A stretch of DNA of 46,122 nucleotides from Candidatus Aegiribacteria sp. (GTDB lineage: Bacteria; Fermentibacterota; Fermentibacteria; Fermentibacterales; JCC-6), in the NCBI GenBank assembly GCA_021108005.1, contig JAIORS010000026.1:1-46122 (forward strand), in the 5' to 3' direction. Both the position numbers and the translations under genes were made by a program. Shown here one piece after another: positions 1,122-33,983 of this stretch. Numbering within the stretch: position 1 is the stretch's first letter; each line of letters opens with the position of its first letter. The notes under the pieces are model-generated. The model worked only from the letters and a program-made list of their open reading frames with translations, was not told the origin of the DNA and made no database searches.

Positions 1122-1244
1122 GGGGGTCGGACGCCACTTGCGGCTAACCAGAAGGGGTCGGACGTCACTTGCGGCACTTGCATAAAATGGCAAGTGCCGC
1201 AAGTGACGTCCGACCCCCTTAAACGCAAGTTACGTCCGACCCCT
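1122..1244. repeat. Nested palindromic REP-like element (GGGGTCGGACGTCACTTGC family)
   Basis: The core is a perfect 28-bp inverted repeat: 1154-1181 against 1190-1217, with the 8-base loop ATAAAATG. It is flanked by a second, imperfect outer pair (1122-1142 and 1224-1243) carrying the same word, so four arms with GGGGTCGGAC at their outer ends are nested around one centre. A fifth single arm is at 6107. The right edge directly abuts the TAA stop of the minus-strand gene that ends at 1245. There is no ORF of its own. The layout (short palindromes starting with G-rich tetramers, in intergenic space) matches REP/BIME sequences moved by RAYT (Y1, IS200-like) transposases; that attribution is inference. 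Confidence 0.85.
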
Positions 1245-2147
1245 TTAGGGAGCATCGATACTGAAAATGTCGTAATTCGAGCCACCACTTCTCCTGTTGG
1301 AAGAGAAAACAAACCAGCCATGTCCCGGATTCCATGCTGGATAAATATCCTCGTCCGGATCGTCTGTCACCTTTATTATGCTGGATCCGTCAAGGTTGCT
1401 TATCCAGATTTCGTAGTTGCCTGATCTGTCAGAAGAAAAAGCGAACCAGTTGTTTTCGGGTCCCCAGCATGGATGAATGTTGTCAAAGGAGTCTTCGATC
1501 ACAGCATGTGGATCGGAGCCGTCCGGCCTGATAAGCCATATGTCCGAATGACTGCCGTAGGAGAGCTCAAATAGAATCCACTGGCCATCGGGGGAAAAGG
1601 AGGGACGAAGACAATCGTGCTGGGGCGCATAGAACTCAGCGGGAGTAAGAAGGCTGTCTTCGTTGTACTCGGTCTTCCAAAGTCCCCAGTGATCGTTTAC
1701 GTATGAGCATAGAAGCAGGGAATCTTCGTCTGCGGTCCAGGTTGGATGCAGGTGATTCCTGCCGTCATTGATTACAACCAGTAATGCGCCAAGGTTTCCA
1801 GGAACGGTTCTTACACTTGAGCTTGAGTCGGTATCATAGGTTGTATACACTATCAGTCCCTGATCGGCGCTCCAGCAACCATTGGGGCCGCATGATTCGT
1901 CATTGTTAGAACCAGCAACGACAACGGGCTCGGTAATACCGTCAAAACCCATGATGCAGTTGGATGAGTACGCATACGAGGAAAACAGCAGTACGCTTCC
2001 TCCCGGAGACCACGAAAGGGCTGTGTCAGCATATATACTGGATAGATAGAGACAGGCGCCATCGGGCCATTCCTCAATCCCGGTGGGATCATCTCCGCAG
2101 GAAATAAGTATTGCTGTCAGTACGGCAAGAACTGCAGTGGTTTTCAT
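1245..2147 (-). CDS. TolB-like beta-propeller (PD40) lipoprotein
   Basis: A 300-residue lipoprotein: hydrophobic signal 3-15 with lipobox ILISC (Cys 17). The body consists of repeated propeller strands of WD40-like/PD40 type, for example FSPDGQWILFELSYGSHSDI, WGPENNWFAFSSDRSGNYEI and WNPGHGWFVFSSNRRSGGSN; the SPDG...I.F.S.R.G..DI signature is typical of TolB C-terminal domains. It lacks the TolB N-terminal domain, so it is not TolB itself. It may be a periplasmic binding or sensing protein. RBS GGAG is 8 bases before the ATG. It lies 42 bases downstream of murA on the same strand and could be its last operon gene. The stop TAA is immediately followed (minus strand) by AGGGGTCGGACG of the repeat element. 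Confidence 0.8.
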   Translation of the reverse strand: MKTTAVLAVLTAILISCGDDPTGIEEWPDGACLYLSSIYADTALSWSPGGSVLLFSSYAYSSNCIMGFDGITEPVVVAGSNNDESCGPNGCWSADQGLIVYTTYDTDSSSSVRTVPGNLGALLVVINDGRNHLHPTWTADEDSLLLCSYVNDHWGLWKTEYNEDSLLTPAEFYAPQHDCLRPSFSPDGQWILFELSYGSHSDIWLIRPDGSDPHAVIEDSFDNIHPCWGPENNWFAFSSDRSGNYEIWISNLDGSSIIKVTDDPDEDIYPAWNPGHGWFVFSSNRRSGGSNYDIFSIDAP

Positions 2148-2189
2148 TATTGTACTCCAATTGAATGTGCGAAAAAGAATGCAGGTAAT

Positions 2190-3503
2190 TCAGTGACTTT
2201 CGTAACTTGGCCCTGCGGTTATACTTGCACCGAGATCCTTAAGTCTGAACACCAGATTCTCGTAACCGCGCTCGATCTGGTGTACGTTTCGGATAATGCT
2301 GGTACCTTCCGCGCAAAGGGCTGCTGTGAGAAGAGCCATACCTGCTCTTATATCCGGGCTGCTAACGTCAGTTCCATGAAGCCTGGAGGGTCCTGAAACA
2401 ACAACGCGGTGAGGATCACACTGTATAATAGCTGCACCCATAGAAACAAGCTTGTCAACGAAAAAAAGCCTGCTTTCAAACATCTTTTCAAAAATAAGTG
2501 ATGTTCCGCTTGACTGGGTTGCCACCACTACCGCGGTGCTTGTCAGGTCCGGAGAAAACCCCGGCCAGGGCGCATCATAGATTGTGGGGATCGAACCGCC
2601 CCTGTCAGGTTGTACTTCCAGCTTCCGTGTGCCATCAATTACGAGGTATTCTCCATCGGTATCGGTTGATACGCCCAGTCTGGAAAATCCGTTCATGGTG
2701 GGGTTTATGATATTCGAGGGTACATCTGGTATCCGAACCACTCCTCCGCAGCATGCGGCAAGCCCGATAAAACTGCCTATTTCAATATGGTCCGGTACTA
2801 TTGTATGTTCTGTTCCATTAAGAAGAGTACTTGACCCGGATATAACGATCCGGTTGGTTCCAATACCTGTTATTCCGGCTCCCATTGAAGTGAGCATATT
2901 CGCGAGGTCCTGAACGTTGGGTTCGCAGGCGGCGTTGTAGATTACCGTTTCACCTTCCGCAAGTGTTGCTGCCATTATCGCGTTCTCGGTGGCTGTAACC
3001 GAAGGTTCGTCAAGAAAAATGAACTTCCCGGTGAGCCTCTCTGCCGAGAAAGACAGCATCCTGCTGGAAAAGCTGACATCAGCTCCCATCTGTTCAAGTG
3101 TGAGGAAATGAGTATCAAGCCTGCGTCTTCCGATGATATCGCCTCCGGGAGGAGGCAGTTTGACGCGGCCTGTTCTTGCAGTCAGGGGTCCGGCAAGAAG
3201 AATTGAAGCCCTGATTTCCCTGCAGGTTGCGATGTCGATGTTGTCAGGGTTAATGCTGGAAGCGTTCAAACGCAAGGATCCGCTACTCAGACGGCTGATT
3301 GAAACGCCAATACTTTCAAGGAGTGATAACATTGCTCTCACATCGCGAATATCTGGAAGATTGTGCAGCGTAACATCACTGCCCGTCAGAAGGCAGGCAG
3401 CCAGAATCGGTAAAGCAGCGTTCTTGCTGCCGCAGGGCTTCAGGACTCCGTATAGTGGTTTTCCCCCCTCAACTATATAGCTGTCAGGGGGAGGATTGCT
3501 CAT
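2190..3503 (-). CDS. murA: UDP-N-acetylglucosamine 1-carboxyvinyltransferase (Asp-type active site)
   Basis: The first committed step of peptidoglycan synthesis: transfers enolpyruvate from PEP to UDP-GlcNAc in the cytoplasm. 437 residues, a normal family length. Visible signatures are GSKNAALP (Lys27, Asn28; the K22/N23 of E. coli MurA), the catalytic loop at 118-127, PDLTS with the general-base Asp, DIRAGMALL and the C-terminal HQIERGYENL. The loop reads PGGDIIGR: the catalytic Cys (C115 in E. coli) is Asp122 here. Asp at this site is known from mycobacterial and chlamydial MurA, stays active and makes the enzyme insensitive to fosfomycin. The start ATG overlaps the exonuclease stop by 4 bases (ATGA), so the two are translationally coupled. 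Confidence 0.96.
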   Translation of the reverse strand: MSNPPPDSYIVEGGKPLYGVLKPCGSKNAALPILAACLLTGSDVTLHNLPDIRDVRAMLSLLESIGVSISRLSSGSLRLNASSINPDNIDIATCREIRASILLAGPLTARTGRVKLPPPGGDIIGRRRLDTHFLTLEQMGADVSFSSRMLSFSAERLTGKFIFLDEPSVTATENAIMAATLAEGETVIYNAACEPNVQDLANMLTSMGAGITGIGTNRIVISGSSTLLNGTEHTIVPDHIEIGSFIGLAACCGGVVRIPDVPSNIINPTMNGFSRLGVSTDTDGEYLVIDGTRKLEVQPDRGGSIPTIYDAPWPGFSPDLTSTAVVVATQSSGTSLIFEKMFESRLFFVDKLVSMGAAIIQCDPHRVVVSGPSRLHGTDVSSPDIRAGMALLTAALCAEGTSIIRNVHQIERGYENLVFRLKDLGASITAGPSYESH

Positions 3504-4309
3504 GGTTTTCTCTCTACAGATGTTTTGTCCAGCAGAGTCTGATACAGGTCGGGGTAGTCAGATGGAATCCATTTCTGTCTCATTAGCCACTTTATATAAT
3601 CCCTGTCCTGAGCTGCGATATCTTCCACCAGTTTCCCTCGGTGCTTTCCAAAGGAAAATATCTTGACTTCGAGGGCAGACTGAGTATACGCAACAAGATC
3701 CGCCCAGCTGTCAGGGGTAACAATATCCGTATGAAGTATGTATTCAACAAGAGCCCTGGCCAGTTCAGAGTCGAACATGGCTCTGTGGGCATCGCCTGTG
3801 ATATCAGTATCCAGATTGAACCTGTACCGGAGGGCCTGCAGAGAATGGGAAGGTATTGCGGGCCATATATGTCTTGACAATCTCAGGGAGTCGAGTTTCA
3901 TATCTTCCCCTATTTCCCCGAAAATCTCCGGAAGCTGCCTGTTCAATATTGTAAAATCGAAGGGAATATTATGTGCGCAAATGAAATCAGCTTTGCCGAC
4001 AATTTCCGCGATATCACCGGAGATATCAACGATAGAGGGTTTGTCCGAAAGCATATCGTTGGTTATATGATGAATTGCTGAAGCTTCTGGTGGCACAGGT
4101 TCAGGTGGAAGTATCAGTTCCTGCAGTAAGACATCATTATGAGGTTTTCTGATGAAGCCTTCGTACGTACTGAGAAGAAATGCAACTTCACAGATATGAA
4201 CGCTTTCAGGGTCTACTCCGGTGGTTTCGGTGTCAAGAAACAGAATTCTGAATTCTTCTCCGTTGTCGCCGGTATTTGAAAACAGGTCCGGTTCGTTTTT
4301 CATAACCAT
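3500..4309 (-). CDS. DnaQ-family 3'-5' exonuclease with C-terminal FGKHRG domain
   Basis: 269 residues. DEDDh exonuclease motifs: Exo I LDTETTG (Asp26, Glu28), Exo II CAHNIPFDF, Exo III HRAMFDSELA. This fold covers the epsilon subunit of DNA polymerase III, RNase T and related trimming nucleases. The C-terminal ~60 residues (FSFGKHRGKLVEDIAAQDRD) match the short FGK.xG...I...D..YIKWL domain (DUF3820/QSregVF-like) seen fused to such exonucleases in other bacteria. No polymerase or BRCT domain is present, so assignment as the replicative proofreader is not secure. Start choice is uncertain: ATG at 4309 or 4303, neither with a clear RBS. It is the first gene of a minus-strand unit with murA. Confidence 0.85.
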   Translation of the reverse strand: MVMKNEPDLFSNTGDNGEEFRILFLDTETTGVDPESVHICEVAFLLSTYEGFIRKPHNDVLLQELILPPEPVPPEASAIHHITNDMLSDKPSIVDISGDIAEIVGKADFICAHNIPFDFTILNRQLPEIFGEIGEDMKLDSLRLSRHIWPAIPSHSLQALRYRFNLDTDITGDAHRAMFDSELARALVEYILHTDIVTPDSWADLVAYTQSALEVKIFSFGKHRGKLVEDIAAQDRDYIKWLMRQKWIPSDYPDLYQTLLDKTSVERKP

Positions 4310-4363
4310 ATTCTAATTGCAGGAAGTGGATTTGAAAACCCGATAAACATGAATACCCTCATA

Positions 4364-4391
4364 TTTTGGCAAATCTGGAATAGTTTATAAT
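4364..4391 (+). promoter_or_regulatory. Candidate sigma-70-type promoter for the 4448 lipoprotein gene
   Basis: TTTTGG (4364-4369), a 16-base spacer and a perfect TATAAT (4386-4391) lie 57 bases ahead of the ATG in the divergent intergenic region. Just after it, ATTGTGTAACAAT (4393-4405) is a short dyad (ATTGT/ACAAT) that could bind a repressor; no family can be assigned. Confidence 0.5.
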
Positions 4392-4447
4392 ATTGTGTAA
4401 CAATGCGTGTACCCTGTTTTTAGTCTATTCAGTTATAAGGAGGAATC

Positions 4448-6106
4448 ATGAAAGCAATTGCAGTATTATCAGTTGCGTTTGCGGCCCTTTTAGTCGCATG
4501 CGGCGCGCAGCCGGACCAGGAGGAGGGTTCTTCAGCATCGTCACTGGATATACTCCCTGAGAATACACTGTTTTCCATGGCAGTGGTCAACCCAGCGGCC
4601 GCTATTTCATCTCTTGACGGTTACGCTTCAGGCGTAGCTATCCTTGGCGAGAATGCAATATCAGGATGGATTCTTTCCGCTCTTGATTGTTCGGATATGT
4701 CCGAGGTGAAAAGCAAACTGGGCGTTGATATCAATGGAGACCTGGTGTTTTTCATGGAGAGTATGATGCCCCAGAGTATAGGGGCGGCTCTGACTGTTTC
4801 GGACCCGGATATATTCTGGGCCAATATCGGAATCACGCCTGAAGCGGGAGAACCGCTGGATGGTTACGAAGTCAGCAAGATAGCCGTTGACTTCGGTAAT
4901 ATCTACTTCTGTTACACGGATGGCCTGCTTCTCGGAGCCGGCAGCAGGGCAGGGCTTCAGAGCATGCTGGCGAGTATTGACGGAAGCCTTCCGCACGGTT
5001 TACCGGGAATACCTGACGGCAGCTTCTACATGTATGCGAACATCGCATCGTTCGGTCCGATGATCGCCAGCCAGCTCGCGATGCTGGAGCCCCAGATACT
5101 CTCTGAAATGACCAGCGATAATGATATGGACGTTGAGCTTACTCAAAATGTTATGGGTCTGTATTTTGACGCTATCAGTCTTATACTGACTGAAACGAAA
5201 TCGATGAGCTGCGTTCTATCATTTGAACCGGAATACATCACCGGGTTCTCTTCCGTAGAATTCGTTCCGGGTTCTTCGCTTGACCAGTACATAATTCCTG
5301 TTGAAAACCAGGATATGACAAATATGATTCCAGCAGGTAACGTTATGGTCGGAAGGTTGAGCCTTGATCCATTGACCAGTACCGCTGCGATGAACGCTGT
5401 CTTCAGCGCGATGAATATCGATAATATTCCACAGAACATGGTTGACTTCTGGGCTCAAACCGCAAAAAATACAGCGATATCAATGACAATTGATGACGAG
5501 AATCCGATGCATATCGTGGCTGTTTACGAAATGCCTGAAGGCTCATCACTTCAGGATGTGAAGGATGCCTACGATATACAATTCTCCATGCTTTCTGAGG
5601 TAATGGAAATGCCGGGACTGACTCTTTCCGATGTTCAGTACGCTGATTACGAAGGTTATGAGTGGATTACATTCGGTATGAACATGGATATGACAGCTCT
5701 ACAGCCCGACAGTGTTGTAAACAGTATGCCCCTTACTGAAAGTGTTGCCTGGACCGCCTGGATGACCGTTCAGGATGGTATTCTCTACCTTGAAATGGCT
5801 CCCGAACCTTTAACTGTACCACAGCTGCTTGATGGTACTTATCAAGGCGAGACCGCGGGAGAAATGCCTGAGATGCAGAGCTTTTCCAGTTCATCCGAGA
5901 TGGCGATGCTTCTCAACATTCCGGGGTATGTGAACATGGCAATAGCAATGTCCGGTCTTGAAGTGCCTCCTATCGACTCCGAGCCGGTATGGCTTGAATC
6001 GTCCGTCGATTTTGTTGATGGAGGAATGAAACAGAACTTCAGAGTTTCAGGTACAGGAATGACCGCATTCATAGGACAGGTCGTTCAGGTATTCGCGGCA
6101 ATCTAG
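4448..6106 (+). CDS. Large secreted lipoprotein, DUF3352-like
   Basis: 552 residues. Lipoprotein signal (AALLVACG, Cys 18), then a low-complexity linker (QEEGSSASS) and a long mixed alpha/beta body rich in Met, Asp and Ser. The N-terminal phrasing (LPENTLFSMAVVNPAAAISSL) resembles DUF3352-type proteins, in which repeated lobes measure an 'amount' over a substrate-binding surface; no catalytic motif is visible. Strong RBS AAGGAGGA 4 bases from the ATG and a good promoter-like sequence upstream suggest solid expression. The TAG stop is directly followed by AGGGGGTCGGACG of a REP-like repeat, and an in-frame remnant of another coding sequence follows. Role unknown. Confidence 0.7.
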   Translation: MKAIAVLSVAFAALLVACGAQPDQEEGSSASSLDILPENTLFSMAVVNPAAAISSLDGYASGVAILGENAISGWILSALDCSDMSEVKSKLGVDINGDLVFFMESMMPQSIGAALTVSDPDIFWANIGITPEAGEPLDGYEVSKIAVDFGNIYFCYTDGLLLGAGSRAGLQSMLASIDGSLPHGLPGIPDGSFYMYANIASFGPMIASQLAMLEPQILSEMTSDNDMDVELTQNVMGLYFDAISLILTETKSMSCVLSFEPEYITGFSSVEFVPGSSLDQYIIPVENQDMTNMIPAGNVMVGRLSLDPLTSTAAMNAVFSAMNIDNIPQNMVDFWAQTAKNTAISMTIDDENPMHIVAVYEMPEGSSLQDVKDAYDIQFSMLSEVMEMPGLTLSDVQYADYEGYEWITFGMNMDMTALQPDSVVNSMPLTESVAWTAWMTVQDGILYLEMAPEPLTVPQLLDGTYQGETAGEMPEMQSFSSSSEMAMLLNIPGYVNMAIAMSGLEVPPIDSEPVWLESSVDFVDGGMKQNFRVSGTGMTAFIGQVVQVFAAI

Positions 6107-6140
6107 AGGGGGTCGGACGTCACTTGCGACACTTGCATAA
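6107..6140 (+). repeat. Single REP-like arm (GGGGTCGGACGTCACTTGC family)
   Basis: This copy shares AGGGGGTCGGACGTCACTTG with the arms at 1122-1243, followed by CGACACTTGCATAA (one base different from CGGCACTTGCATAA). There is no partner arm nearby, so this is a solo half. It begins at the base after the TAG of the upstream lipoprotein gene. Confidence 0.85.
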
Positions 6141-6142
6141 TT

Positions 6143-6298
6143 CTACAAATAGATTCTCTGCAGTCTCTGAAGAATTTGCATTATTACAATTGCTTTCTTG
6201 TTGATACGACTATTCAGATTGGTGAGGGATATATATCCGCTGCAACACTGGTATTTCCAGGTATGGACAAAGAGCTTGAAATACAGTGGGATGATTAA
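6143..6298 (+). pseudogene. 3' remnant of a coding sequence behind the repeat
   Basis: An open frame of 51 codons with protein-like composition ends in TAA (tail ISAATLVFPGMDKELEIQWD). It has no start codon or RBS; its 5' side is replaced by the REP-like arm. It is in the same frame as the preceding lipoprotein ORF, separated from it by one stop and the repeat. It therefore looks either like the truncated end of a separate small gene or like an old extension of the upstream gene cut off by the insertion. Function unknown. Confidence 0.4.
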
Positions 6299-6307
6299 AT
6301 ATCAAGG

Positions 6308-6877
6308 CTAATCAGATGGATTTCTGTTGTACCTTTCCTGGGCAGAGGATAGTCCTTCCTTTATGTAGAGGAGGACGCAGTCAGCGGCATTGTGCGCCAT
6401 AACTGAAGCTTCCTCCTCTAGTTTCTCCGGTACTGTATCCAGAACGTAATCGGCAAGGTCCTTTCCTCCGGGCGGAGGCCCGATACCCAGCCTGAGCCTG
6501 GGGAACTGCTCGGTACCCAGTGAATCGATGATGCTTTTAAGGCCGTTATGGCCTCCGTCAGAACCGCTGTTCCGAAGACGGAGTCTGCCGAGATCGAGAT
6601 TGATATCGTCACAGACAACAAGCAGCTCTTCGGCGTTGTAGCCCCTGCTGTCAAGGAATGCCGCGATTGATTTGCCGCTTCTGTTCATGTAGACTGTTGG
6701 CTTGATAAGATCAGGGCCATCGGGAATAACGGTTACTTTGAAAAGCCCTGCGTCTATGAAATGGACGCCGGCTTCCCGCGCCAGTATATCGGCTGCCCAG
6801 AAGCCGGCGTTATGCCATGTCATGCTGTACTTATCCCCGGGGTTTCCAAGGCAGGCAACAAGACGGGGAACTGACAA
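6308..6877 (-). CDS. pth: Peptidyl-tRNA hydrolase
   Basis: Cleaves the ester bond of peptidyl-tRNAs released from stalled ribosomes, recycling tRNA. 189 residues, typical for bacterial Pth. Seen: CLGNPGDKY with the substrate-binding Asn, TWHNAGF with the catalytic His, MNRSGKSI with the second conserved Asn, VCDDINLDLGRLRLR, and GHNGLKSI. It starts 3 bases after the rplY stop; the rplY-pth pair is a conserved bacterial gene order. Confidence 0.97.
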   Translation of the reverse strand: MSVPRLVACLGNPGDKYSMTWHNAGFWAADILAREAGVHFIDAGLFKVTVIPDGPDLIKPTVYMNRSGKSIAAFLDSRGYNAEELLVVCDDINLDLGRLRLRNSGSDGGHNGLKSIIDSLGTEQFPRLRLGIGPPPGGKDLADYVLDTVPEKLEEEASVMAHNAADCVLLYIKEGLSSAQERYNRNPSD

Positions 6878-6880
6878 GGA

Positions 6881-7561
6881 TTATTCCTTTCCGGATTTAG
6901 AAGATTCTTCTTCCGCTTTTCCTTCGGAAGGTTCTTCGCCCTCGACAGCGCCTTCCTCACCTTCAAGAAGCTCTTCTTCCTCTTCTTCAACCTCGACCTT
7001 GGCCACACTGGGCGCAACAACGGAAGCGACCACAAGGCTGCTATCCATATCGAGAATCATATCCTCAGGTAATTCGATCTCCGAAAGGTGTATTGTATCA
7101 CCAATATCCATGTCTTCAACGTTAACGTTAATGGCTGACGGGATATCCTTTGCTCTTACCTTTATAATGATCTCATGAAGAGCATGTTCGAGGACTCCAC
7201 CCATTTTAACGCCGACGGGGATGTTTTCAAGGTGTAAATGTACCGGGATTGAGACTATCTGATCCGCGGACACCCTCAGAAAATCGATATGGACAGGTTT
7301 ATCGGAAATTATGTCCCACTGGACATCCTTTACGATAGCCGTAAGCGGAGACTTCCTCCCCATTTTCAGATTGACAATCCCGGTTGAGCTGGAGTAGCCT
7401 ATTTCGTCCATGAATTCTTTTTCGTTAATGGTGACGTTAAGCTCACCCCCGCCTCTTCCGTAAACCACGGCGGGAACTGAACCGGAATGGCGCAATCTCC
7501 TTGCCACTCTTGAACCGAACTCAGTACGTTCGGCGATTTTCAATGACTTTTTCTCAGGCAT
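6881..7561 (-). CDS. rplY: 50S ribosomal protein L25, long CTC form
   Basis: Binds 5S rRNA in the large subunit. 226 residues: an N-terminal 5S-binding beta-barrel (about 1-92, including VPAVVYG and VKDVQWD) plus the C-terminal TL5/CTC domain (about 98-185), followed by a very acidic tail (residues 190-226, with EVEEEEEELLEGEEG and a Lys/Ser end). The long form and acidic tail are common outside Gammaproteobacteria. RBS AAAGGA stands 7-8 bases before the ATG. It is located directly after tRNA-Gln. Confidence 0.95.
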   Translation of the reverse strand: MPEKKSLKIAERTEFGSRVARRLRHSGSVPAVVYGRGGGELNVTINEKEFMDEIGYSSSTGIVNLKMGRKSPLTAIVKDVQWDIISDKPVHIDFLRVSADQIVSIPVHLHLENIPVGVKMGGVLEHALHEIIIKVRAKDIPSAINVNVEDMDIGDTIHLSEIELPEDMILDMDSSLVVASVVAPSVAKVEVEEEEEELLEGEEGAVEGEEPSEGKAEEESSKSGKE

Positions 7562-7581
7562 TACTATATCCTTTCTTCCTC

Positions 7582-7596
7582 CCGGTTACACCGGGA
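7582..7596 (-). other. Small hairpin between tRNA-Gln and rplY
   Basis: CCGG(G)-type inverted repeat CCCGG/CCGGG with loop TGTAA on the minus strand, between the tRNA 3' end and the rplY RBS. It has no U-tract, so it is more likely a processing or spacing structure in a tRNA-mRNA co-transcript than a terminator. Confidence 0.5.
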
Positions 7597-7599
7597 TTA

Positions 7600-7674
7600 T
7601 GGCTGGGGCGGGAGGATTCGAACCCCCAATACAGGGACCAAAACCCTGCGTCTTAACCATTTGACGACGCCCCA
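7600..7674 (-). tRNA. tRNA-Gln (anticodon TTG)
   Basis: Read on the minus strand, the acceptor TGGGGCG pairs with CGCCCCA, discriminator G and encoded CCA end. The anticodon arm CAGGG-TTTTGGT-CCCTG gives anticodon TTG (Gln). The T arm has TTCGAAT. The 5' part (22 bases, 7653-7674) lies inside the 3' end of the ispE reading frame, same strand, so the tRNA must be cut out of the ispE mRNA or made from a promoter inside ispE. The order ispE - tRNA-Gln - (prs) - rplY - pth is common in bacteria; prs is absent here. Confidence 0.96.
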
Positions 7675-9487: not shown

Positions 9488-9577
9488 ATAGTCTGACAGC
9501 TGATCACTGCGGTGCTTTTCGGGAAATTACTTCTTCCCTTCAACCGCAAATTCTGTATATTCCACCTGTCATTGAGG

Positions 9578-9583
9578 TATAAT
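9578..9583 (+). promoter_or_regulatory. Possible -10 box upstream of the Na/Pi cotransporter gene
   Basis: A perfect TATAAT in the 194-base divergent gap, 98 bases ahead of the ATG. No convincing -35 at 16-18 bases; the assignment rests on the -10 only. Confidence 0.3.
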
Positions 9584-9681
9584 CTTATCGTTGCTGTTTT
9601 GTATTGGATTGCTGTACATTCCGGCCCATGCCAGATACATGAATTCTCAGTAACCGGCTCATCCGGAGTTGAAAGGCTGTT

Positions 9682-11742: not shown

Positions 11743-11805
11743 CAATAGTGCAGTATCTGTGAGTTGACAATTGCTTTAAGCGTTGAGAGATTTATCAAGT
11801 TGTAT

Positions 11806-11832
11806 CCGGTCAAAGGTTGACCGGAAATTTTT
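11806..11832 (+). terminator. Intrinsic terminator after the Na/Pi cotransporter gene
   Basis: CCGGTCAA/TTGACCGG stem (11806-11824, 3-base loop AGG) followed by AAATTTTT. It lies 64 bases after the stop codon. Confidence 0.85.
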
Positions 11833-20761: not shown

Positions 20762-20891
20762 CGCACGAACATAAACCGTTTTATCTTTCAGTGAAAGAGA
20801 TTGACTGCAGGTGGTTGCCTTGCTCAGCATGGAGTATTTTACTGAACCTGATAAAACTGTGGTAATGAATCACGCTTACGAAAGGTATCCT

Positions 20892-22568
20892 ATGACACTT
20901 CAGCAGAGGGTTACGGAAACTGTTAATTCAAGGGACAATGTATTCAGGAATATTCCCAGGACTGAAATGATACGGAAAGCAGTGGACAGGGGTGAGGCTG
21001 TTGTCAGTGCCTGCGGAGCGCTGTCCACCTGGACTCCTCCCGAATCAACGGGAAGGAGCCCGAAAGACACTCTGATAGTAAAACGGAAATCAAGCCAGGA
21101 CAGTATCGACTGGACCAGCCCCAACAATATTCCGGTTGACGAAGGTACATTCGATATGGTCTTTGAAGACGCTCTTGAAAAACTCGCGGAAGTACCCGAG
21201 CTTTTTATCACCGACAGGCTCATAGGCGCTGATTCATCTTACGCTCTGCCGGTGCATACCATTTCTGACGGGGCTCTGCCTGCTCTTTTCACCGATAATA
21301 TGTTCCGCCCATGGGTAGATGAAGCCGCTGAGAGCACATGCTTCCGGGATAAGCATTTTACTCTGATAGTTCTGCCTTACCACAAACTTGACCCTTTGAA
21401 GTACGAAGGTCGTCTGAGGATTGATCCAAGACTAGGACATACATCAACGATGATGGTGGGAATGGATATGGACCGCCGCATCGGGATCGTCTACGGTTCA
21501 GCTTATGGAGGAAGCGTAAAGAAGCTGATGTTCACCGTTATGAACTACCTTCTTCCAACGGTGGATATCCTCCCGATGCATTGCAGCGCTAACGAGGGTG
21601 ATGATGGTAAAAGCGCCCTTCTTCTTGGACTTTCCGGAACGGGCAAGACAACGCTTTCGGCGGATCCTTCCAGAGCTCTTCTTGGAGATGACGAACACGG
21701 CTGGGGAGAAAGCGGAATAGCCAATTTTGAGAACGGGTGCTACGCGAAACTCATAGATCTCAGCGCAAAGAAGGAACCGGAGATATACAATGCCTGTTTT
21801 CACGAAGGTGACTGGCTCGAGCACGGCTCGATAATCGAGAACACGATGATGTACACTGACGGGCATTTTGACCTTTTTGACGACAGGCTTACACCCAATT
21901 CCAGAGGTTCGTATCCGCTGCGTTACCTTTCCAACATCAAAGAATCATCAGTGGCGGGACATCCATCAACCATCCTTTTCCTTACAGCGGACGCCAATGG
22001 TGTATTACCCCCCGTATCGAAACTGAGCCGGAATCAGGCTATGTTCTGGTTCCTGATGGGCTATACCAGCAAGCTTGCCGGAACTGAAACGGGAATTACC
22101 GAGCCCGTAAGTACTTTCTCAAGGTTCTTCGGTGAACCCTTCATGCCCAGAAATCCCGATGTTTACGCGTCGATGCTTGGCGAGCGAATGGATCGGTACG
22201 GTACGGAAGTCTACCTCATTAATACAGGCTGGAGCGGAGGGCCATACGGAGTGGGTTCAAGGATAGACCTGCCACTCACGAGAATAATGGTAAACGCCGC
22301 CCTTTCGGGAATACTGAGAGAGATCAGTTGCCATGAAGACCCTGTTTTCAGAGTAATGGTGCCGGATTCATGCCCGGGATTGCCTGACTGTTCAATACTT
22401 GATCCTGTGAATACTTGGGAAAACAAGGAAGCCTACAGAGCCAGAGCCCACAAGCTTGCAACTGAATTCAGGGCGCATTTCGGAAAAGCCTACGGTAACA
22501 AGGGTATTTCCGAAGAGATTGCAAGCGAATGTCCAGGGTCAGGTCTTGCATCCGGGCATTATGTATAG
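20892..22568 (+). CDS. pckA: Phosphoenolpyruvate carboxykinase (ATP)
   Basis: Interconverts oxaloacetate + ATP with PEP + CO2 + ADP. Signatures: ESTGRSPKD, MHCSANEG, kinase-1a loop GLSGTGKT and the metal/ATP motif DDEHGWGE. 558 residues from ATG 20892, chosen for AAAGG 6 bases ahead; ATG 20829 and GTG 20811 are in-frame alternatives that would overlap the divergent MFS ORF. The last residues (GSGLASGHYV) and the stop are read from the inserted repeat at 22535, so the native C-terminus has been replaced. In anaerobes this enzyme can run in either direction. Confidence 0.96.
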   Translation: MTLQQRVTETVNSRDNVFRNIPRTEMIRKAVDRGEAVVSACGALSTWTPPESTGRSPKDTLIVKRKSSQDSIDWTSPNNIPVDEGTFDMVFEDALEKLAEVPELFITDRLIGADSSYALPVHTISDGALPALFTDNMFRPWVDEAAESTCFRDKHFTLIVLPYHKLDPLKYEGRLRIDPRLGHTSTMMVGMDMDRRIGIVYGSAYGGSVKKLMFTVMNYLLPTVDILPMHCSANEGDDGKSALLLGLSGTGKTTLSADPSRALLGDDEHGWGESGIANFENGCYAKLIDLSAKKEPEIYNACFHEGDWLEHGSIIENTMMYTDGHFDLFDDRLTPNSRGSYPLRYLSNIKESSVAGHPSTILFLTADANGVLPPVSKLSRNQAMFWFLMGYTSKLAGTETGITEPVSTFSRFFGEPFMPRNPDVYASMLGERMDRYGTEVYLINTGWSGGPYGVGSRIDLPLTRIMVNAALSGILREISCHEDPVFRVMVPDSCPGLPDCSILDPVNTWENKEAYRARAHKLATEFRAHFGKAYGNKGISEEIASECPGSGLASGHYV

Positions 22569-22600
22569 TTTAATTTAAGAAGATAACTATATATATGAGT
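22535..22600 (+). repeat. REP-like element copy A (AGGGTCAGGTCTTGCATCC family)
   Basis: Starts AGGGTCAGGTCTTGCATCC, then GGGCATTATGTATAGTTTAA and an A+T-rich tail. It matches the copy at 27825 for about 45 bases with few differences. It lies partly inside the 3' end of pckA and supplies its stop codon; the rest fills the convergent gap to the cyclase gene. Confidence 0.8.
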
Positions 22601-26472: not shown

Positions 26473-26627
26473 TTTGCAATTCCTCGGTTAATACCCAGAT
26501 ATCAATTTTGAATACTGGAAATGTGGTCTGCCGGCTCTAATTGAAACCGGAATATTCATCCATTGCGGAACTGCCTAATAATAATAAATTATATTGCAGT
26601 TGTTACAAGGTATGGAAGGAAAATAAT

Positions 26628-27251: not shown

Positions 27252-27301
27252 CCACTTTTCCTCGGTTAATAATCTGTTATCTTCAAACCGGAGGAAATAC
27301 A

Positions 27302-27826
27302 ATGAAGGGGAGATTTCAGCTCTATACCGGAAACGGCAAGGGTAAGACCACAGCAGCGCTTGGGCTTGCGGTAAGAGCCGCATGTGCGAATTTGAATGTA
27401 TACTTCGGGCAGTTCATGAAAGGCCGGGATTACTCGGAACTCTGTCTGCCTGATCGTTTTCCAGGTCTTATCACGATGGAACAATTCGGTACTCCCAGGC
27501 TTATATGCAAGGGGGAGAAACCTTCAGAGGATGATATACGATCCGCCTCAGATGGTCTCAATAAGATAAGATCAGCGATGAAATCCGGTAAATACAGTAT
27601 TGTTATTGCGGATGAACTGAACGTTACTGTTTATATGGGGCTTCTTGATAAGGATGATGTGATGGATTTCATTGATCAGCGGCCGGACGGTGTAGAACTT
27701 GTGCTGACTGGACGCTACGCCCCGGAATGTTTTGTCGAAGCAGCTGACCTGGTAACGGAAATGAGGGAAGTAAAACATTACTACAAAACGGAGAAACTGC
27801 TGGCCCGAAAAGGCATCGAATCCTAG
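27302..27826 (+). CDS. cobO: Corrinoid (cob(I)yrinic acid a,c-diamide) adenosyltransferase
   Basis: 174 residues, CobA/BtuR/CobO type. P-loop GNGKGKTTAALGLAVRAA, then VYFGQFMKGRDYSE, and the usual short GIE tail. Adds the 5'-deoxyadenosyl group to reduced corrinoid to make coenzyme B12. GGAGGAAAT RBS 6-7 bases ahead; 50 bases after rex. The TAG stop overlaps the first bases (AGGGTC) of the repeat, so the insertion lies at the end of the gene. Confidence 0.95.
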   Translation: MKGRFQLYTGNGKGKTTAALGLAVRAACANLNVYFGQFMKGRDYSELCLPDRFPGLITMEQFGTPRLICKGEKPSEDDIRSASDGLNKIRSAMKSGKYSIVIADELNVTVYMGLLDKDDVMDFIDQRPDGVELVLTGRYAPECFVEAADLVTEMREVKHYYKTEKLLARKGIES

Positions 27827-27888
27827 GGTCAGGTCTTGCATCCATGCATTATATACTATTTAATTACACTATTAGATATATAACATAG
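27825..27888 (+). repeat. REP-like element copy B (AGGGTCAGGTCTTGCATCC family)
   Basis: Same 19-base head as copy A (22535), ATGCATTATATACTATTTAA, and an A+T-rich tail ending near the RBS of the next gene. The TAG of cobO is made jointly by the gene's T and the element's AG. Confidence 0.8.
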
Positions 27889-27901
27889 TAAGGAGAATGA
27901 A

Positions 27902-28465
27902 ATGAAAACTGCTGTTATAATCCTGGCTTTGTTTACCACCTTCGCTGTCGCATCTGAAAGAAGTGATCTTGAAGTATCTTTCGGTGGTGGTGTCTGGATG
28001 CCATCTCTGTTCGATTCAGATGCCAACCTTACTCCTGGACTCGCAATAGTTGCTTCACTGCAGATCCCACCATCATTGGGGAATTGCTTCATTATTGAAG
28101 CTGGATACCTTAGCGCAGGTTCTGACAACACTAACTACAGCGGAGTAAGCGGTATCCCCCTTACAGTAGGGTACAGAATGTATCCCTTCTTCAGAAGATA
28201 CGCAGGTCCTCGTGGAATTGAACCACTTCTTGGTATATATGGCGGAGGAATGCTTTTATGGGACAGTCCTGAAGGCAGCAACGATAAAACGAGTACCGGA
28301 GCCGGTATAATCGGAGTTGAACTTGGCGCAAGAGTACATGTAGGAGAATCAACTTCCATTGATCTTGTCGTGACTCCGGAATGGGTGCCGGCAGGTTCCG
28401 CGCTGGCTGGAGAAACAGGTAAGGACCTTTCCGGCCTTGAAGTAACCGTATCTGTATCGTTCTGA
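27902..28465 (+). CDS. Predicted outer-membrane beta-barrel protein
   Basis: 187 residues. Signal peptide (TAVIILALFTTFAVASE, cleavage near 18). The mature part alternates short beta strands with Gly/Asn turns (EVSFGGGVWMPSL, ...LTVGYRMYPFF, LLGIYGGGMLLW, VELGARVHVG) and ends ...LEVTVSVSF with the terminal Phe typical of OMP assembly signals. Resembles small OmpW/OMP_b-brl 8-strand barrels. AGGAG RBS 6 bases ahead. Function unknown; convergent with rlmN. Confidence 0.8.
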   Translation: MKTAVIILALFTTFAVASERSDLEVSFGGGVWMPSLFDSDANLTPGLAIVASLQIPPSLGNCFIIEAGYLSAGSDNTNYSGVSGIPLTVGYRMYPFFRRYAGPRGIEPLLGIYGGGMLLWDSPEGSNDKTSTGAGIIGVELGARVHVGESTSIDLVVTPEWVPAGSALAGETGKDLSGLEVTVSVSF

Positions 28466-28473
28466 ACGTACAA

Positions 28474-29541
28474 TTACGAATCAGAACAGGAACAAGAAGT
28501 ACGATGCGCTTCCGGGCCAAGCTGGCCGCAGGCAGCGGCAATGTCACTTCCCCTTGAGCGCCTCAGTGTAACCGCCTGGCATCTGGGGTAAAGGTAATGC
28601 ATGAATCGGTTCACCGATTCATCATTGGGCCTCCTGTATGGAACACCTTCAATCGGATTGTAGACGAGTAGATTTATCTTGCATTCAATATCAGCGACGA
28701 ATTCTACTAGGGCATCAGCCTCAGGGATTGTATCGTTAATGCCTGCAATAAGGCAATATTCCAGCGTTATCCTTCGACCTTTCAAATTGCAATAATCCAG
28801 TAGATCTCGCTTAATCATTGAAAGCGGTAGAGCTTTTGATACAGGTACAAGCTTCAATCTGGTACTTTCCACAGCACTGTGAAGAGAAACCGCAAGCCCA
28901 TACTGGGCATCCAGTTGTGCCAGTTTTGCGATACCGCCGGGTATTCCCACTGTTGACACGGTTATTTTTCTGGCGCCGATACAAATACCCCTGTCATCGG
29001 TCATTATGGATAGAGCATCGCTGACAGCCGGGAAATTGTCCATAGGTTCCCCCATTCCCATTAAAACAACGTTGCTTATTCGCGAATGGGTTCTGTTCTG
29101 CAAACCGTACAGTTGAGCCACTATTTCATCGGTTCGAAGGTTACGTCTGAATCCTCCTCTCCCCGTTTGACAGAACTTACAGCCGCATTTGCAGCCTGCC
29201 TGGGTCGATATACATGCTGTCAATCTCGGCGGGTCCGGGATAAGAACTGATTCTATCACCTCTCCGTCTTTCAGGAGAAAGGAATGCTTTGCAGTTCCAT
29301 CATCTGCAGTAATAGTATTGACGGTCTCAAGGGCTGTTATCTCACCGGTTCGGTCAAGCTCGTTTCTGGCAGCCAGAGAAATGTCGGTCATCTGATGAAA
29401 TGAATTGATCCTTTTCAGGTGTATCCAGGAGAAGAGCTGTTGCGCCCTGTACGGTTTCATACGCAGGTTAACTGTTACCCATTTTTTCAGATCATTATAT
29501 ATAAGACCGGTTACCTGTTCTTTTTTTGAATCGTTGCTCAT
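28474..29541 (-). CDS. rlmN: 23S rRNA (A2503-C2)/tRNA (A37-C2) methyltransferase
   Basis: Radical SAM methyltransferase. 355 residues from ATG 29541, normal for RlmN. Seen: QAGCKCGCKFCQTG (CxxxCxxC), VVLMGMGEPMDNF, KITVSTVGIPGGI, GRRITLEYCLIAGIND and the C-terminal LRRSRGSDIAAACGQL with the methyl-carrying Cys. The frame stays open to 30006 but the extra 155 residues run antisense through mtnP and are not family-like. ATG 29572 (MVEGKACT) is a second plausible start. Confidence 0.93.
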   Translation of the reverse strand: MSNDSKKEQVTGLIYNDLKKWVTVNLRMKPYRAQQLFSWIHLKRINSFHQMTDISLAARNELDRTGEITALETVNTITADDGTAKHSFLLKDGEVIESVLIPDPPRLTACISTQAGCKCGCKFCQTGRGGFRRNLRTDEIVAQLYGLQNRTHSRISNVVLMGMGEPMDNFPAVSDALSIMTDDRGICIGARKITVSTVGIPGGIAKLAQLDAQYGLAVSLHSAVESTRLKLVPVSKALPLSMIKRDLLDYCNLKGRRITLEYCLIAGINDTIPEADALVEFVADIECKINLLVYNPIEGVPYRRPNDESVNRFMHYLYPRCQAVTLRRSRGSDIAAACGQLGPEAHRTSCSCSDS

Positions 29542-29628
29542 GAGTGTGCAGGCTTTCCCTTCGACCATTGTTGATAGAGTATATATATAACATATGGAAT
29601 TTGCATTTGAATTATTGAGAGGATAATT

Positions 29629-30495
29629 ATGGAAAATCGTATTGGTATTATCGGAGGATCGGGAGTCTATTCTTTTGAGGGAGTTAGAATAGAGCAGCAG
29701 TTGAATACTGAAACTCCTTTTGGAAAACCTTCCGCTCCGCTTCTTCTGGCTGATTATAAGGATATCCCGTTGGTGTTTCTGCCACGTCATGGAGAGGGAC
29801 ATACCCTTTTGCCTTCCGAGGTTCCATATGCAGCTAACATATACGCACTGAAGCATGTAGGAGTCCGGCAGCTTATATCCATTTCTGCGGTGGGCAGCCT
29901 TCAAAATGAGTATCACCCGAGACATTTTGTCATTCCCGATCAGATTTACGATCGTACCAAGGGTATAAGAAGATCCACCTATTTCGGTGGAGGAATGGCT
30001 GGTCACGTTGGATTCGGTTCACCATTCTGCAGGGACCTTTCAGATATACTGTTCAAAGCGGCCGAAGACGCTGATGCTGTAGTTCATAATGGTGGTACAC
30101 TGGTTTGCATGGAAGGTCCCGCTTTCTCAACAAGGGCTGAGAGCGAAGTATACCGCAGGCAAGGTCATGCGGTTATTGGAATGACGACTATTCCAGAGGC
30201 AAAGCTTGCAAGAGAAGCAGGTATATGTTATGCAACTATATGCATGGTAACGGATTACGATGTATGGCATGAAACAGAAGAAGACGTTTCTGTAGAAGCG
30301 GTAATAGCAAATGTCAGAGTAAATACTGTCCGTGCCAGGAAGACGATTGAAAATGCTCTGCAGGCGATTGATATCAATAAGACTGATTGTTCCTGCTATG
30401 GTGGAAAGAGCGCAATTAAGGAAGCAATCATGACTGCTCCGGAACACCGAAGCTACCTGGCGAAGGAGCATCTGAAGGTTATTCTCGAAAGATAA
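29629..30495 (+). CDS. mtnP: S-methyl-5'-thioadenosine phosphorylase
   Basis: 288 residues, PNP/MTAP family: phosphorolysis of MTA to adenine and methylthioribose-1-phosphate in methionine salvage. Seen: IGIIGGSGVYSFEG, LPRHGEGHTLLPSEV (phosphate site), ISAVGSL, CMEGPAFSTRAES, VIGMTTIPEAKLAREA and CYATICMVTDYDVW. Some members also use inosine-type substrates. ATG preceded by GAGAGGATAATT. Followed after 8 bases by thiL. Confidence 0.94.
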   Translation: MENRIGIIGGSGVYSFEGVRIEQQLNTETPFGKPSAPLLLADYKDIPLVFLPRHGEGHTLLPSEVPYAANIYALKHVGVRQLISISAVGSLQNEYHPRHFVIPDQIYDRTKGIRRSTYFGGGMAGHVGFGSPFCRDLSDILFKAAEDADAVVHNGGTLVCMEGPAFSTRAESEVYRRQGHAVIGMTTIPEAKLAREAGICYATICMVTDYDVWHETEEDVSVEAVIANVRVNTVRARKTIENALQAIDINKTDCSCYGGKSAIKEAIMTAPEHRSYLAKEHLKVILER

Positions 30496-30503
30496 TTTAT
30501 TCA

Positions 30504-31466
30504 ATGAAACAGCTTATTTCAGAGATAGGGGAAAGAGGGCTGATAAGGAGACTCAGGAAAATATTTCCCCAGCTTTCCTTTATTGGAGATGACAGTGCTG
30601 TGTTGTCAGAAATTCGTTGTCCTGTTGTTACCACTGACAGTTTTTTTGAAGGTACCCATTTTTATCGATGGTGGGCCCCTCCACGTATACTTGGAAGACG
30701 GTTGCTTGAAGCCGCATTGTCAGACATAGCGGCAATGGGGGCAAGAGCCAGGTGGGTCTTTGCCGCTTTGGCCCTTGACCCGGGAATGAAAATAAATTGG
30801 ATAGAGGATTTCTATAGAGGATTGACCGAGCGTGATGATATTATTATCGCGGGTGGGGAGACGGTGAGGGGAGAGCGCATGGGAATTACACTCACGATAA
30901 TTGGTGAGGGAGAAGAACCAGAAACTCTCCTTAGAAGATATTCCCTTCTTCCTGGTGATAATCTATGGGTAAGCGGCTTAATCGGCCGTGCGCTTGATGC
31001 GCCCTTATTACTGGAAGAAATTGGTGGATTTGAAGGTGATGATCTAAACCCCCGAAGGAAAATCATCTCCGATGCAGAACTGGTTCAGCTCAGGGATTTT
31101 CTGCAGCCGAGAGCGGAGCTGGAACTTGGAATTGAACTAAGACAATTGGGAGTTAGGTGCGCAATAGACATTTCTGATGGGCTTATTTCTGAAGCAGAAC
31201 ACCTTTCTCGCGAAAGCGGAGTTAATGCAATACTTGATATAAGTGAGTCCATGTTCTACGATTCTGTGAAGGAAAGACCACTGGCTGCGTCTGCAGCTGG
31301 AGAAGATTTCAGTTTATTGTTTGGAGCAGCAGACGGGCTTGATTTTTCTTCAAAAGGGTGTTTTTTAGTTGGGCGGGCTGAATCCGGGAAGGGAGAAGTG
31401 TCCGTATTTCTTGATGGAGACAAAGCTAATATCAGTTCAACGGGATACGATCATATGGAGGTTTGA
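30504..31466 (+). CDS. thiL: Thiamine-monophosphate kinase
   Basis: 320 residues, AIR-synthase fold: phosphorylates TMP to TPP with ATP. Seen: IGDDSAVLSE, VTTDSFFEGTHF, LSDIAAMGARARW, GGETVRGERMGITLTIIG, and IDISDGLISEAEHL. TPP is the cofactor of the Kor complex in this window. Part of a run mtnP-thiL-DUF4342. Confidence 0.94.
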   Translation: MKQLISEIGERGLIRRLRKIFPQLSFIGDDSAVLSEIRCPVVTTDSFFEGTHFYRWWAPPRILGRRLLEAALSDIAAMGARARWVFAALALDPGMKINWIEDFYRGLTERDDIIIAGGETVRGERMGITLTIIGEGEEPETLLRRYSLLPGDNLWVSGLIGRALDAPLLLEEIGGFEGDDLNPRRKIISDAELVQLRDFLQPRAELELGIELRQLGVRCAIDISDGLISEAEHLSRESGVNAILDISESMFYDSVKERPLAASAAGEDFSLLFGAADGLDFSSKGCFLVGRAESGKGEVSVFLDGDKANISSTGYDHMEV

Positions 31467-31469
31467 CAA

Positions 31470-31727
31470 ATGACTGATTCATCTGAATCAAAAGAATTCA
31501 AGGTTTCCGGCAGCGATCTTCTTGAAAAAATGAAGGAACTTGTTCACCAGGGAAACGTAAGGCACATACTCATTAAGAATGAAGCCGGTAAAACGCTGAT
31601 AGAGATTCCCCTGACAATGGGAATTCTCGGAGTTGCGCTTATCCCGGCCTATGCCGCAGTCGCTGCAATCGCAGCGCTTGCTGTGAAATGTACTATTGAA
31701 GTAAAAACTTCAAAAGATCCGGACTGA
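31470..31727 (+). CDS. DUF4342 protein
   Basis: 85 residues. N-terminal segment VSGSDLLEKMKELVHQGNVR (UBA-like helix), strand IKNEAGKTLIEIPLT, and a C-terminal hydrophobic hairpin (ILGVALIPAYAAVAAIAALAV) ending in a basic/acidic tail. Layout and wording match DUF4342. Starts 3 bases after thiL. Function unknown. Confidence 0.85.
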   Translation: MTDSSESKEFKVSGSDLLEKMKELVHQGNVRHILIKNEAGKTLIEIPLTMGILGVALIPAYAAVAAIAALAVKCTIEVKTSKDPD

Positions 31728-31897
31728 ATGCTAATACCTCAATAATCGGTTCTACAGAATTCTCGGATAGAATCTGAAATACTCAGTAGTTCCGATCCTG
31801 TACAGTTTCCGAGAAGGGCAGCTTCATTCACTATTTCATTCCCAACGAGTATCGGTTATTGTATTGGCATCATAACAAGAATGCAGGAGGTACATCT

Positions 31898-33403
31898 TTG
31901 AACGCCCAGATGATAATACATGGTATTCAGGCAATTGTTCTGGGTTTATCTGTTGGCCTCATTCTCCTGATTATCCGGAAGCATGCTCCCGGCAGCAAAT
32001 TGAAACTGTGGGTACTTCTTGCTGGAATCGCTGGCGCAGCATATCTTGTAATGAAAATGTTCGGTGTTCCAGGGGAATCCACATTCTCAAAGATGGCCCT
32101 TGCGGCCACCATCATGCTTTCTTCGAACATCATGCTGCAGATTCTGAACCTGCTGTTATGGGACTATCTTTTAAAAAAACAGGTTGATGTTCATATTCCA
32201 AGGCTTGTAATAGATATCATCAATTTCATAGTACTTGCGATTGTGGCTGTTGCCCTTCTGAACGGAATATTCGGAGTTAAACTTACAGCGTTCCTTGTAA
32301 CATCCACTGTGCTTTCGGCAGTAATCGGTCTTTCTCTTCAGGATATTCTGGGCAACCTCTTTGCCGGGCTGGCTCTTCAGATGGAACGGCCCTACAAACT
32401 TGGTGAATGGATAAATGTTGGTGATGAAGAGGGGGTTGTTGTCCAGATGAACTGGAGAACACTCAGCATTCGAACAAGATCCGGTGACCATGTAATAATT
32501 CCGAACGCAACGGTATCCAAGGATATCGTAACGAATTACTCCCGTCCCGACAGGAATCATATGTGCCGGATATCGGTTGGAATGGCTTATGCCGATCAAC
32601 CTGGAAAGATGAAAAGGATAATTATTTCGATTCTGAAAAAAATGGATGGAGTTCTTGATGCTCCATCACCAAGGGTATTCCTCAGTAAATTCGATGATTA
32701 CTCCATTATTTATGATGTCAGGTTCTGGATAAGTGAATATCACAGGAGGCCGGAGTTAGAGAACGCAGTGAGAACTCGAATCTGGTACGGTTTAAAGCGT
32801 AACGGCCTGACTATCCCGTTCCCCATAAGAGATGTGACAATCAGGGAGGTATCTGCCGAACAGGAGGACAGGGTAAACGAGAATATGAAACAGGATGTTA
32901 TCCGTGAACTCAGGAACATCGAACTGTTCAAACCACTGTCTTACGATCAGATAGATGAGCTTGCTGCAAATTCATCAAAACTACTGTTCTCCAAAGGGGA
33001 ACTCCTGGTTCAGCAGGGGGATTCCGGTGACTCCCTTTTCATTATTTCGGACGGTGAAGTGGAGATATCCGTTTCTGACAGCACTGGAAGAAGAACCCAT
33101 CTGGTTGATCTTCACAGGGGAGACTACTTTGGTGAAATGAGTCTTCTTACAGGTGAGCCGCGTTCTGCTTCTGTTACCGCTATTTGTGAAACTGAAGTGA
33201 TAGTCGTTGAGAAGAGTGGAATGGCTGAATTACTGGAGCAGGAATCTTCGATTCTTGAACCTCTTTCCGCCATGCTTGAGAAGAGAATGGAAGACCTTTC
33301 AGGAAGAGTAACAAAACAGACGGGAAAGAAAAAGAGCGTGGAACAGCCTGACAGAAAGGAGCACCTGATTGGTAGAATCAGGGATTTCTTCGGCATAGGA
33401 TAA
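31898..33403 (+). CDS. MscS-family channel with C-terminal cyclic-nucleotide-binding domain (bCNG-like)
   Basis: 501 residues from TTG 31898: AGGAGG lies 7 bases ahead, whereas the frame's earlier start (31859) has no RBS. Four or so TM helices; the pore/MscS signature LLSAVIGLSLQDILGNLFAG-like segment is at about residues 137-157 (wording TVLSAVIGLSLQDILGNLF). Beta domain GEWINVGDEEGVVVQMNWRT; C-terminal CRP-type cNMP domain about 345-465 with the phosphate-binding cassette FGEMSLLTGEPRSASV (Glu and Arg ligands present). Members of this subfamily open on cAMP and conduct weakly mechanosensitively. The TAA stop abuts a palindromic repeat. Confidence 0.92.
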   Translation: MNAQMIIHGIQAIVLGLSVGLILLIIRKHAPGSKLKLWVLLAGIAGAAYLVMKMFGVPGESTFSKMALAATIMLSSNIMLQILNLLLWDYLLKKQVDVHIPRLVIDIINFIVLAIVAVALLNGIFGVKLTAFLVTSTVLSAVIGLSLQDILGNLFAGLALQMERPYKLGEWINVGDEEGVVVQMNWRTLSIRTRSGDHVIIPNATVSKDIVTNYSRPDRNHMCRISVGMAYADQPGKMKRIIISILKKMDGVLDAPSPRVFLSKFDDYSIIYDVRFWISEYHRRPELENAVRTRIWYGLKRNGLTIPFPIRDVTIREVSAEQEDRVNENMKQDVIRELRNIELFKPLSYDQIDELAANSSKLLFSKGELLVQQGDSGDSLFIISDGEVEISVSDSTGRRTHLVDLHRGDYFGEMSLLTGEPRSASVTAICETEVIVVEKSGMAELLEQESSILEPLSAMLEKRMEDLSGRVTKQTGKKKSVEQPDRKEHLIGRIRDFFGIG

Positions 33404-33404
33404 T

Positions 33405-33496
33405 AAGGGACGGAGGGAATTTATTTGAATATGCTATATAAAAATAGTATTATGTCATAATATTCGCTATTTTGAAATAAATTCCCTCCGTCCCTA
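33405..33496. repeat. 92-bp palindromic MITE/REP-like element (AGGGACGGAGGGAATTTATTT family)
   Basis: Perfect 21-bp terminal inverted repeat: 33406-33426 with 33475-33495. The A+T-rich interior holds a further small palindrome (TATTATG-T-CATAATA near 33448-33462). The whole gap between two convergent genes is this element; each gene's TAA stop lies 1-2 bases from an element end. No T-run, so its role as terminator is uncertain although the stem is strong. Confidence 0.85.
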
Positions 33497-33497
33497 T

Positions 33498-33983
33498 TTA
33501 AAAGATGACCTGGCTCATGGCGTAGTAAATAGCCATGAGGGAAGAAAACACCGCACTCGAAAAGAACCTCCACTTCAGAGGTATATTATTTTGTATCACA
33601 TAATTCGCTGTGAATGCCACAGGTACATTTGCAGCGAATGAAAAGAACCCGAGGCTGAGAAGACTCAAGTTTATACTGCTCCAGCTGCCCTGCAGTATCT
33701 GAATGAACAGAAGATGGCGTGCTATCCAGATCGGATTGAAATAGAGAATGGCCAGGCCGGCTCTCGACAGTGAGCCCCGCAGACCGTTTATACCTGCGGT
33801 TTTCGTATCTATCCATCTGAAGTAATTAGGGATTTCAAAGGCGTAAACGGTACCGCCGATGATCATCATTCCCAGCATTCTTACGAGTGAGAATTCTGAC
33901 ATAAGAATAGATGCGATAGTATCCCCGGTGGAGTATATGAGAAGTCCCTTTAGAATGTCAGTTCTGCCGTACCTGAGTTTCAA
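33498..33983 (-). CDS. Mpv17/PMP22-like small membrane protein
   Basis: 161 residues with four hydrophobic helices. The pattern TGDTIAS...R.LGMMIIGGTVYAFEIPNYFRWID, NPIWIARHLLF and VPVAFTANYVIQNNIPLKWRF is reminiscent of Mpv17/PMP22 proteins (GD..Q...., P..h.WY..ld, ...W..WP..Q..nF...P...r). No RBS obvious. The match is by pattern only. Confidence 0.5.
   Translation of the reverse strand: MKLRYGRTDILKGLLIYSTGDTIASILMSEFSLVRMLGMMIIGGTVYAFEIPNYFRWIDTKTAGINGLRGSLSRAGLAILYFNPIWIARHLLFIQILQGSWSSINLSLLSLGFFSFAANVPVAFTANYVIQNNIPLKWRFFSSAVFSSLMAIYYAMSQVIF

Follow-up and report, generated by a model that had tools for sequence, protein, structure and literature searches.

Y1 transposases are associated with several kinds of short dispersed repeat. 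TIRtrons, their TIRYT transposases and the corresponding TIR repeat families were described by Di Nocera et al. in 2013 (PMC3733652) and have been placed in TnpA-REP subclass 2.1 (PMC6006769). The TnpA-REP enzymes characterised so far cut at CT or CA in single-stranded DNA (PMC8266576). A connection between REPs and the ends of genes has also been published: REP termini can provide TAG stops (PMC3733652), and REPs have been found within 15 nt of stops (PMC12306157).

Here we describe repeats that lie at the stop codons of six genes in a window of 46,122 nucleotides, which is the entire contig C26 of a 3.2-Mb draft genome (G000) from the uncultured FCB-group genus Candidatus Aegiribacteria. We propose, with considerable confidence, that these repeats represent the terminal inverted repeats (TIRs) of small transposons, present singly or in pairs, and that each family is mobilised by its own Y1 single-strand transposase (TIRYT, related to RAYTs) and placed near stops. 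The genomes used throughout are fragmented MAGs, and genes were called with a home-made, hexamer-based finder. Outside the window, the analysis of this genome covered the stretches surrounding repeat matches.

Repeats at six gene ends

The initial annotation had placed elements of three sequence families against or across six stops, and the junctions, read directly, bear this out, with ORF ends and the repeat search in agreement (Table 1). At the minus-strand stop at 1245 the junction is CTCCC TAA A|GGGGTCGGACG, and the PD40 gene is two codons shorter than in relatives (..DAP* versus ..DSPSY* and ..DAPGY*); the element is absent in four relatives, and G011 has an E-like element further on. At 6106 (plus strand; ATC TAG AG|GGGGTCGG) the last codons of the gene have been replaced (..AAI* versus ..GAMSQ* and ..GAMAQ* in relatives) and the element, a 52-nt match of 94% to C172:27651-27702, is absent in G013, G017, G003 and G011. 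The C-terminal tail of pckA (..CPGSGLASGHYV*) is encoded by the element itself. In cobO the stop at 27826 (plus strand; TCC T|AG GGTCAGG) is formed by a T plus the AG of the element, and B-like or decayed sequence is found at this end in all five sampled congeners. Finally, the convergent stops at 33403 (plus strand; TAA TA|AGGGACGG) and 33498 (minus strand; TAA AT|AGGGACGG) enclose a pair that folds as a single long hairpin (z -10.5); four relatives (G011, G017, G003 and G016) carry a different element, GGGGACGGAGG, in its place.

Table 1 Repeat elements and adjoining genes in the window
Feature	Position	Strand
Truncated copy of the family A left end, a ladder unit	1121..1142	+
Family A end, left arm of central palindrome	1152..1181	+
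Family A end, right arm of central palindrome	1190..1219	-
Family A end, outermost copy, GGG end against gene stop at 1245	1224..1245	-
PD40 (WD40-like) protein gene	1245..2147	-
552-aa protein gene	4448..6106	+
Solitary family A end at stop of 4448-6106	6107..6158	+
pckA (ATP-type)	20811..22568	+
Solitary family B end, 41 nt, pckA TAG inside	22535..22575	+
cobO-type corrinoid adenosyltransferase gene	27302..27826	+
Solitary family B end at cobO	27825..27865	+
MscS-type channel gene with cNMP-binding domain	31898..33403	+
Inverted pair of family C, spanning the interval between two convergent stops	33404..33497	+
161-aa protein gene convergent with 31898-33403	33498..33983	-

Two other stretches of the window were noted. 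Behind the element at 6107 lies a 120-nt coding-like stretch, in which a Pfam scan found nothing significant; the hairpin that follows the 6106 gene in relatives (GATGCCGGCAGC..GCTGCCGGCATC) was not seen in this genome (window 6107-6307). A family A-like sequence at 987-1006 (GGGGACGTCACTTAATCC), within the 3' part of gene 26-1066, may be a decayed element or a chance match.

Genome-wide searches allowing up to 3 mismatches returned 48 matches for family A (GGGGTCGGACGTCACTTGCG) with its sub-family A2 (GGGGTCGGACGTAACTTCTG), 19 for B (AGGGTCAGGTCTTGCATCC) and 11 for C (AGGGACGGAGGGAATTTATTT), against 1, 0 and 0 for reversed patterns. The remaining Y1 transposase genes of the genome define families D (GGGGTCAAATCTTT...), E (GGGGACGTACCAC...) and F (GGTGCCGGGCCTAAC...), which are likewise dispersed repeats (36, 14 and 19 matches, respectively), and one more. 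Among 60 genomes searched, none outside the genus had family B, and an Rfam search of the window matched only a tRNA.

Element ends and stop codons

Proximity to stops was taken as the distance separating the GGG end of the outermost copy per orientation from the closest gene boundary on the same side. For families A-C, 18 of 66 sites had a stop reading into the element in the interval [-9,+9] around the GGG end, against a null of 4.9% for random non-coding or gene-terminal positions. The genome-wide enrichment at stops that the initial annotation had proposed as a test is therefore present, and it recurred in families D-F, which were searched afterwards as an out-of-sample test: a stop was found within 9 nt at 14 of 55 sites, mostly in E (7 of the 14) and F (4). 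The corresponding probabilities (binomial P ~2e-9 for A-C, P ~3e-7 for D-F and P ~3e-15 for A-F pooled) are rough, because copies are not fully independent. One of 69 copies lay inside a gene.

Among A-C, E and F, the distances peak at 0-9 nt past the stop (29 of 41 downstream cases; 17% expected). Family D is an exception to this at-stop pattern, with 13 of 19 downstream cases at 10-30 nt after the stop, often in A-tracts. Copies of this family (L237-L266) often stand between convergent genes, where A-tract, hairpin and T-tract together have the shape of a bidirectional terminator.

A family-blind control gave a similar orientation. In the neighbourhood of 196 stops from syntenic regions of six genomes, the 8-mer [AG]GGG[ATC]C[AG][AGT] had 13 matches 0-9 nt after stops and facing the gene, a count in which orthologous stops enter several times; there was one match in the reverse direction and none at starts, with no peak either way.

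Y1 transposases and the identity of the elements

The genome contains eight Y1_Tnp (PF01797) genes, each adjoining its own repeat family. In seven cases the gene is enclosed by inverted copies of a single family, spaced about 1 kb apart; the eighth gene, that of family C, stands at the edge of a contig and has copies on one side only. The initial annotation had suggested looking for a RAYT-type (Y1) transposase flanked by the same words as the window elements, and one was found for every family of the window (A at C110, A2 at C63, B at C191 and C at C175). Moreover, a Y1 gene is enclosed by a B pair, with a spacing of about 0.96 kb, in seven congeners. Several observations count against our proposal: although 28 copies of B are present in G011, B pairs enclose none of the Y1 genes listed for that genome; solitary copies lack the opposite end, and a single end would have to move; the cobO and 33403/33498 sites are filled in nearly all sampled congeners; and family D stands past stops, not at them. 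Immediately behind the B TIRtron at L055, a segment of about 1.55 kb (L055:3411-4965) is missing from G013/L109, although the same TIRtron is there.

In six transposases scanned, the NCBIfam model REP_Tyr_transpos scored 62-79 bits, in every case below its curated cut-off of 80, and the IS200 model matched one of the six, at 21.7 bits against a cut-off of 55. Domain scans placed HTH_23 above cut-off in the C-terminal part of the B transposase and a DnaA-like C-terminal match, below cut-off, in two transposases; no C-terminal HTH_23/28 or Bac_DnaA_C was seen in those of A and A2. Sequence comparison of the B transposase with solved structures gave no meaningful match.

The element ends read GGGGTC, AGGGTC, AGGGAC, GGGGAC and GGTGCC. 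The B variants GGGGTCAGG fit the motif GGGGWSAS, and A (GGGGTCGG), D (GGGGTCAA) and E (GGGGACGT) fit it in part; among the family ends examined, no GTAG tetranucleotide was seen. Copies of A, C and D that occur in pairs fold into long hairpins. The description of the elements as REP-like palindromes accordingly holds for the inverted pairs of the window (1121-1247 and 33404-33497) and fails for solitary A and B copies, which fold no better than shuffles and so are not the palindromic units of GTAG REPs. A second conserved hairpin behind B ends was also considered and rejected, as folds gave it no support. Because solitary A and B copies are not palindromes, we prefer TIRtron TIRs to GTAG-tagged REPs; the repeats fit the TIRs of small transposons of the TIRtron/TIRYT type. 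Mobilisation by a RAYT, which had been thought probable, is supported by the Y1 genes beside the families and needs amending as regards the ends, which look like TIRtron TIRs rather than GTAG REPs.

Orthologous gene ends in relatives

Gene ends orthologous to occupied ones were compared in G013, G017, G016, G003 and G011. Empty sites, for which the initial annotation had proposed to look, exist, and copy sets differ between species, so neither of the outcomes that it named as refuting its reading was observed. At least one relative is element-free at 1245, 6106, L017, L041, L042, L052, L055, L057, L062, L067, L075 and L078, and at the tRNA-Ser end in L007. These comparisons support mobility of the elements. 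In nearly all resolved cases the native stop of the relatives is at most about 10 nt from the junction; larger distances occur at L041 (10-16 nt) and at the left-hand site of L039 (21 nt). At L052 and L055 the junction T|AGGG rebuilds a TAG where relatives have GAC TGA and CTC TAA, respectively, and the genes pckA, L017, L021, L041, L056 and L066 have acquired a C-terminal tail that is encoded by the element.

For L045, L056, L058, L066, L070 and 33403/33498, the corresponding end is occupied in other species by a different element. Across the syntenic region, the motif is found in relatives at 17 of the 30 ends that are occupied in G000 and at none of the 95 that are bare in G000; occupancy is therefore persistent at some ends, through inheritance, replacement or re-insertion. 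Some sites, such as cobO and 33403/33498, are filled in nearly all sampled congeners, often by another family, so long-lived sites and turnover are needed beyond simple insertion.

A ladder-like arrangement was also observed. Of about 143 element ends, 15 are preceded by a tandem unit consisting of 3-8 nt of host flank and a partial left-end copy (L014/L041, L024, L039, L043, L046 and L007; in relatives L117, L136, L141, L171 and L172), and this ladder may record the way in which the ends move. In both compound elements, at 1121-1219 of the window and at L007 (C139:14857-14953), the tag CCAGAA precedes the inner A end, and in C139 the outer copy directly follows tRNA-Ser CCA|GAA. Given the common tag, donor flank seems to have moved along with the element.

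Proposed mechanism and alternative explanations

In our proposal, the transposase would join the GGG end near a stop in a single-strand reaction, often behind a pyrimidine; the base before the B end is C or T in 17 of 19 copies. The insert would be tolerated where the first bases of the element rebuild the stop (T|AG), where an in-frame stop follows a few codons into the element (GGGGTCGGACG-TAA) or where the native stop remains just upstream. Ends already occupied could later be used again, as copies multiply locally in tandem or give way to other families.

What brings the copies so close to stops is a separate matter. There is almost an even chance that survivorship is the whole of it, with near-random insertion leaving stop-proximal copies as the least harmful, because a stop is kept or supplied, and stops not being targeted. 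The near absence of copies from gene interiors, the A2 inserts that terminate their genes at the same in-frame TAA and the elements beside starts and after a tRNA all agree with this; yet survivorship predicts many copies 10-60 nt downstream, between stop and terminator, where A-C, E and F instead peak at 0-9 nt, and the other spot preferred by family D suggests family-specific preferences. More tentatively, and on balance doubtfully, TIRYT transposons of several families might target gene ends as such, an occupied end becoming a lasting docking site for others. The landing cue would then be stop-proximal sequence or exposed single-stranded DNA, perhaps including the tRNA 3' end, and, if so, the stop codons and C-terminal tails of ordinary genes would be continually rewritten.

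The elements might instead be kept as working 3' elements, that is, as bidirectional terminators, mRNA stabilisers or translation brakes at stops. In favour of this, paired C and D copies occupy the space between convergent genes and form strong hairpins, which in D are preceded by an A-tract and followed by a T-tract; translation in E. coli is affected by REPs that lie within 15 nt of stops (cited in PMC12306157); and the terminator-like hairpin behind the 6106 gene of relatives is not visible here. Solitary copies of A or B, however, show no significant folding and many orthologous genes lack an element, and we think this explanation unlikely. Still less probable are old, vertically inherited insertions homogenised by gene conversion, with little present transposition. 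Although the contrast between G000-occupied and G000-bare ends would suit them, most or all of the relatives sampled have no element at 1245 and 6106, unrelated families share one gene end across species (L056, L058 and L045), and the tag common to the C139 and window compounds is the sequence found at the tRNA-Ser end. A counting artefact, in which any in-gene insertion looks stop-proximal because the element brings its own stop, is hardly credible: several counted stops (+1 in B and +13 in A2) are indeed supplied by the element, but the native stops read from element-free relatives, which in nearly every resolved case lie no more than about 10 nt from the junction, led us to reject it as the main cause.

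Comparison with known systems

The elements resemble TIRtrons in having a Y1 transposase gene between long TIRs and in their moderately abundant TIR families with single copies or inverted pairs. The resemblance may extend to the ends, some of which come close to GGGGWSAS, and to the HTH_23 or DnaA-like C-terminal matches of some transposases. They differ in that at least eight families share one genome and most ends match GGGGWSAS only loosely; the strong stop-facing bias and the family turnover at a single gene end are features that we did not find reported for TIRs in the non-subscription literature. With the GTAG REPs and RAYTs of E. coli, Pseudomonas and Stenotrophomonas they have in common short repeats mobilised by a Y1 transposase, whereas no GTAG tag is seen and solitary copies are not palindromic. 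They share the Y1_Tnp domain, and presumably a single-strand mechanism, with IS200/IS605, from which the long TIRs and, in some, the extra C-terminal HTH domain set them apart.

As far as the non-subscription literature shows, the new findings are the repeat families of this genus, the enrichment at stops in families kept out of sample, the reading of junctions against native stops and the family turnover at one end. Since stop-adjacent REPs have already been published, we regard this as a well-resolved case of a known phenomenon, one in which empty sites and a family-independent control document mobile ends rewriting gene stops and C-termini. The coexistence of many transposase families in one genome makes insertion preference separable from selection, and the comparison connects TIRYTs, a group that has been little studied, with the closeness of REPs to stop codons, which was already known.
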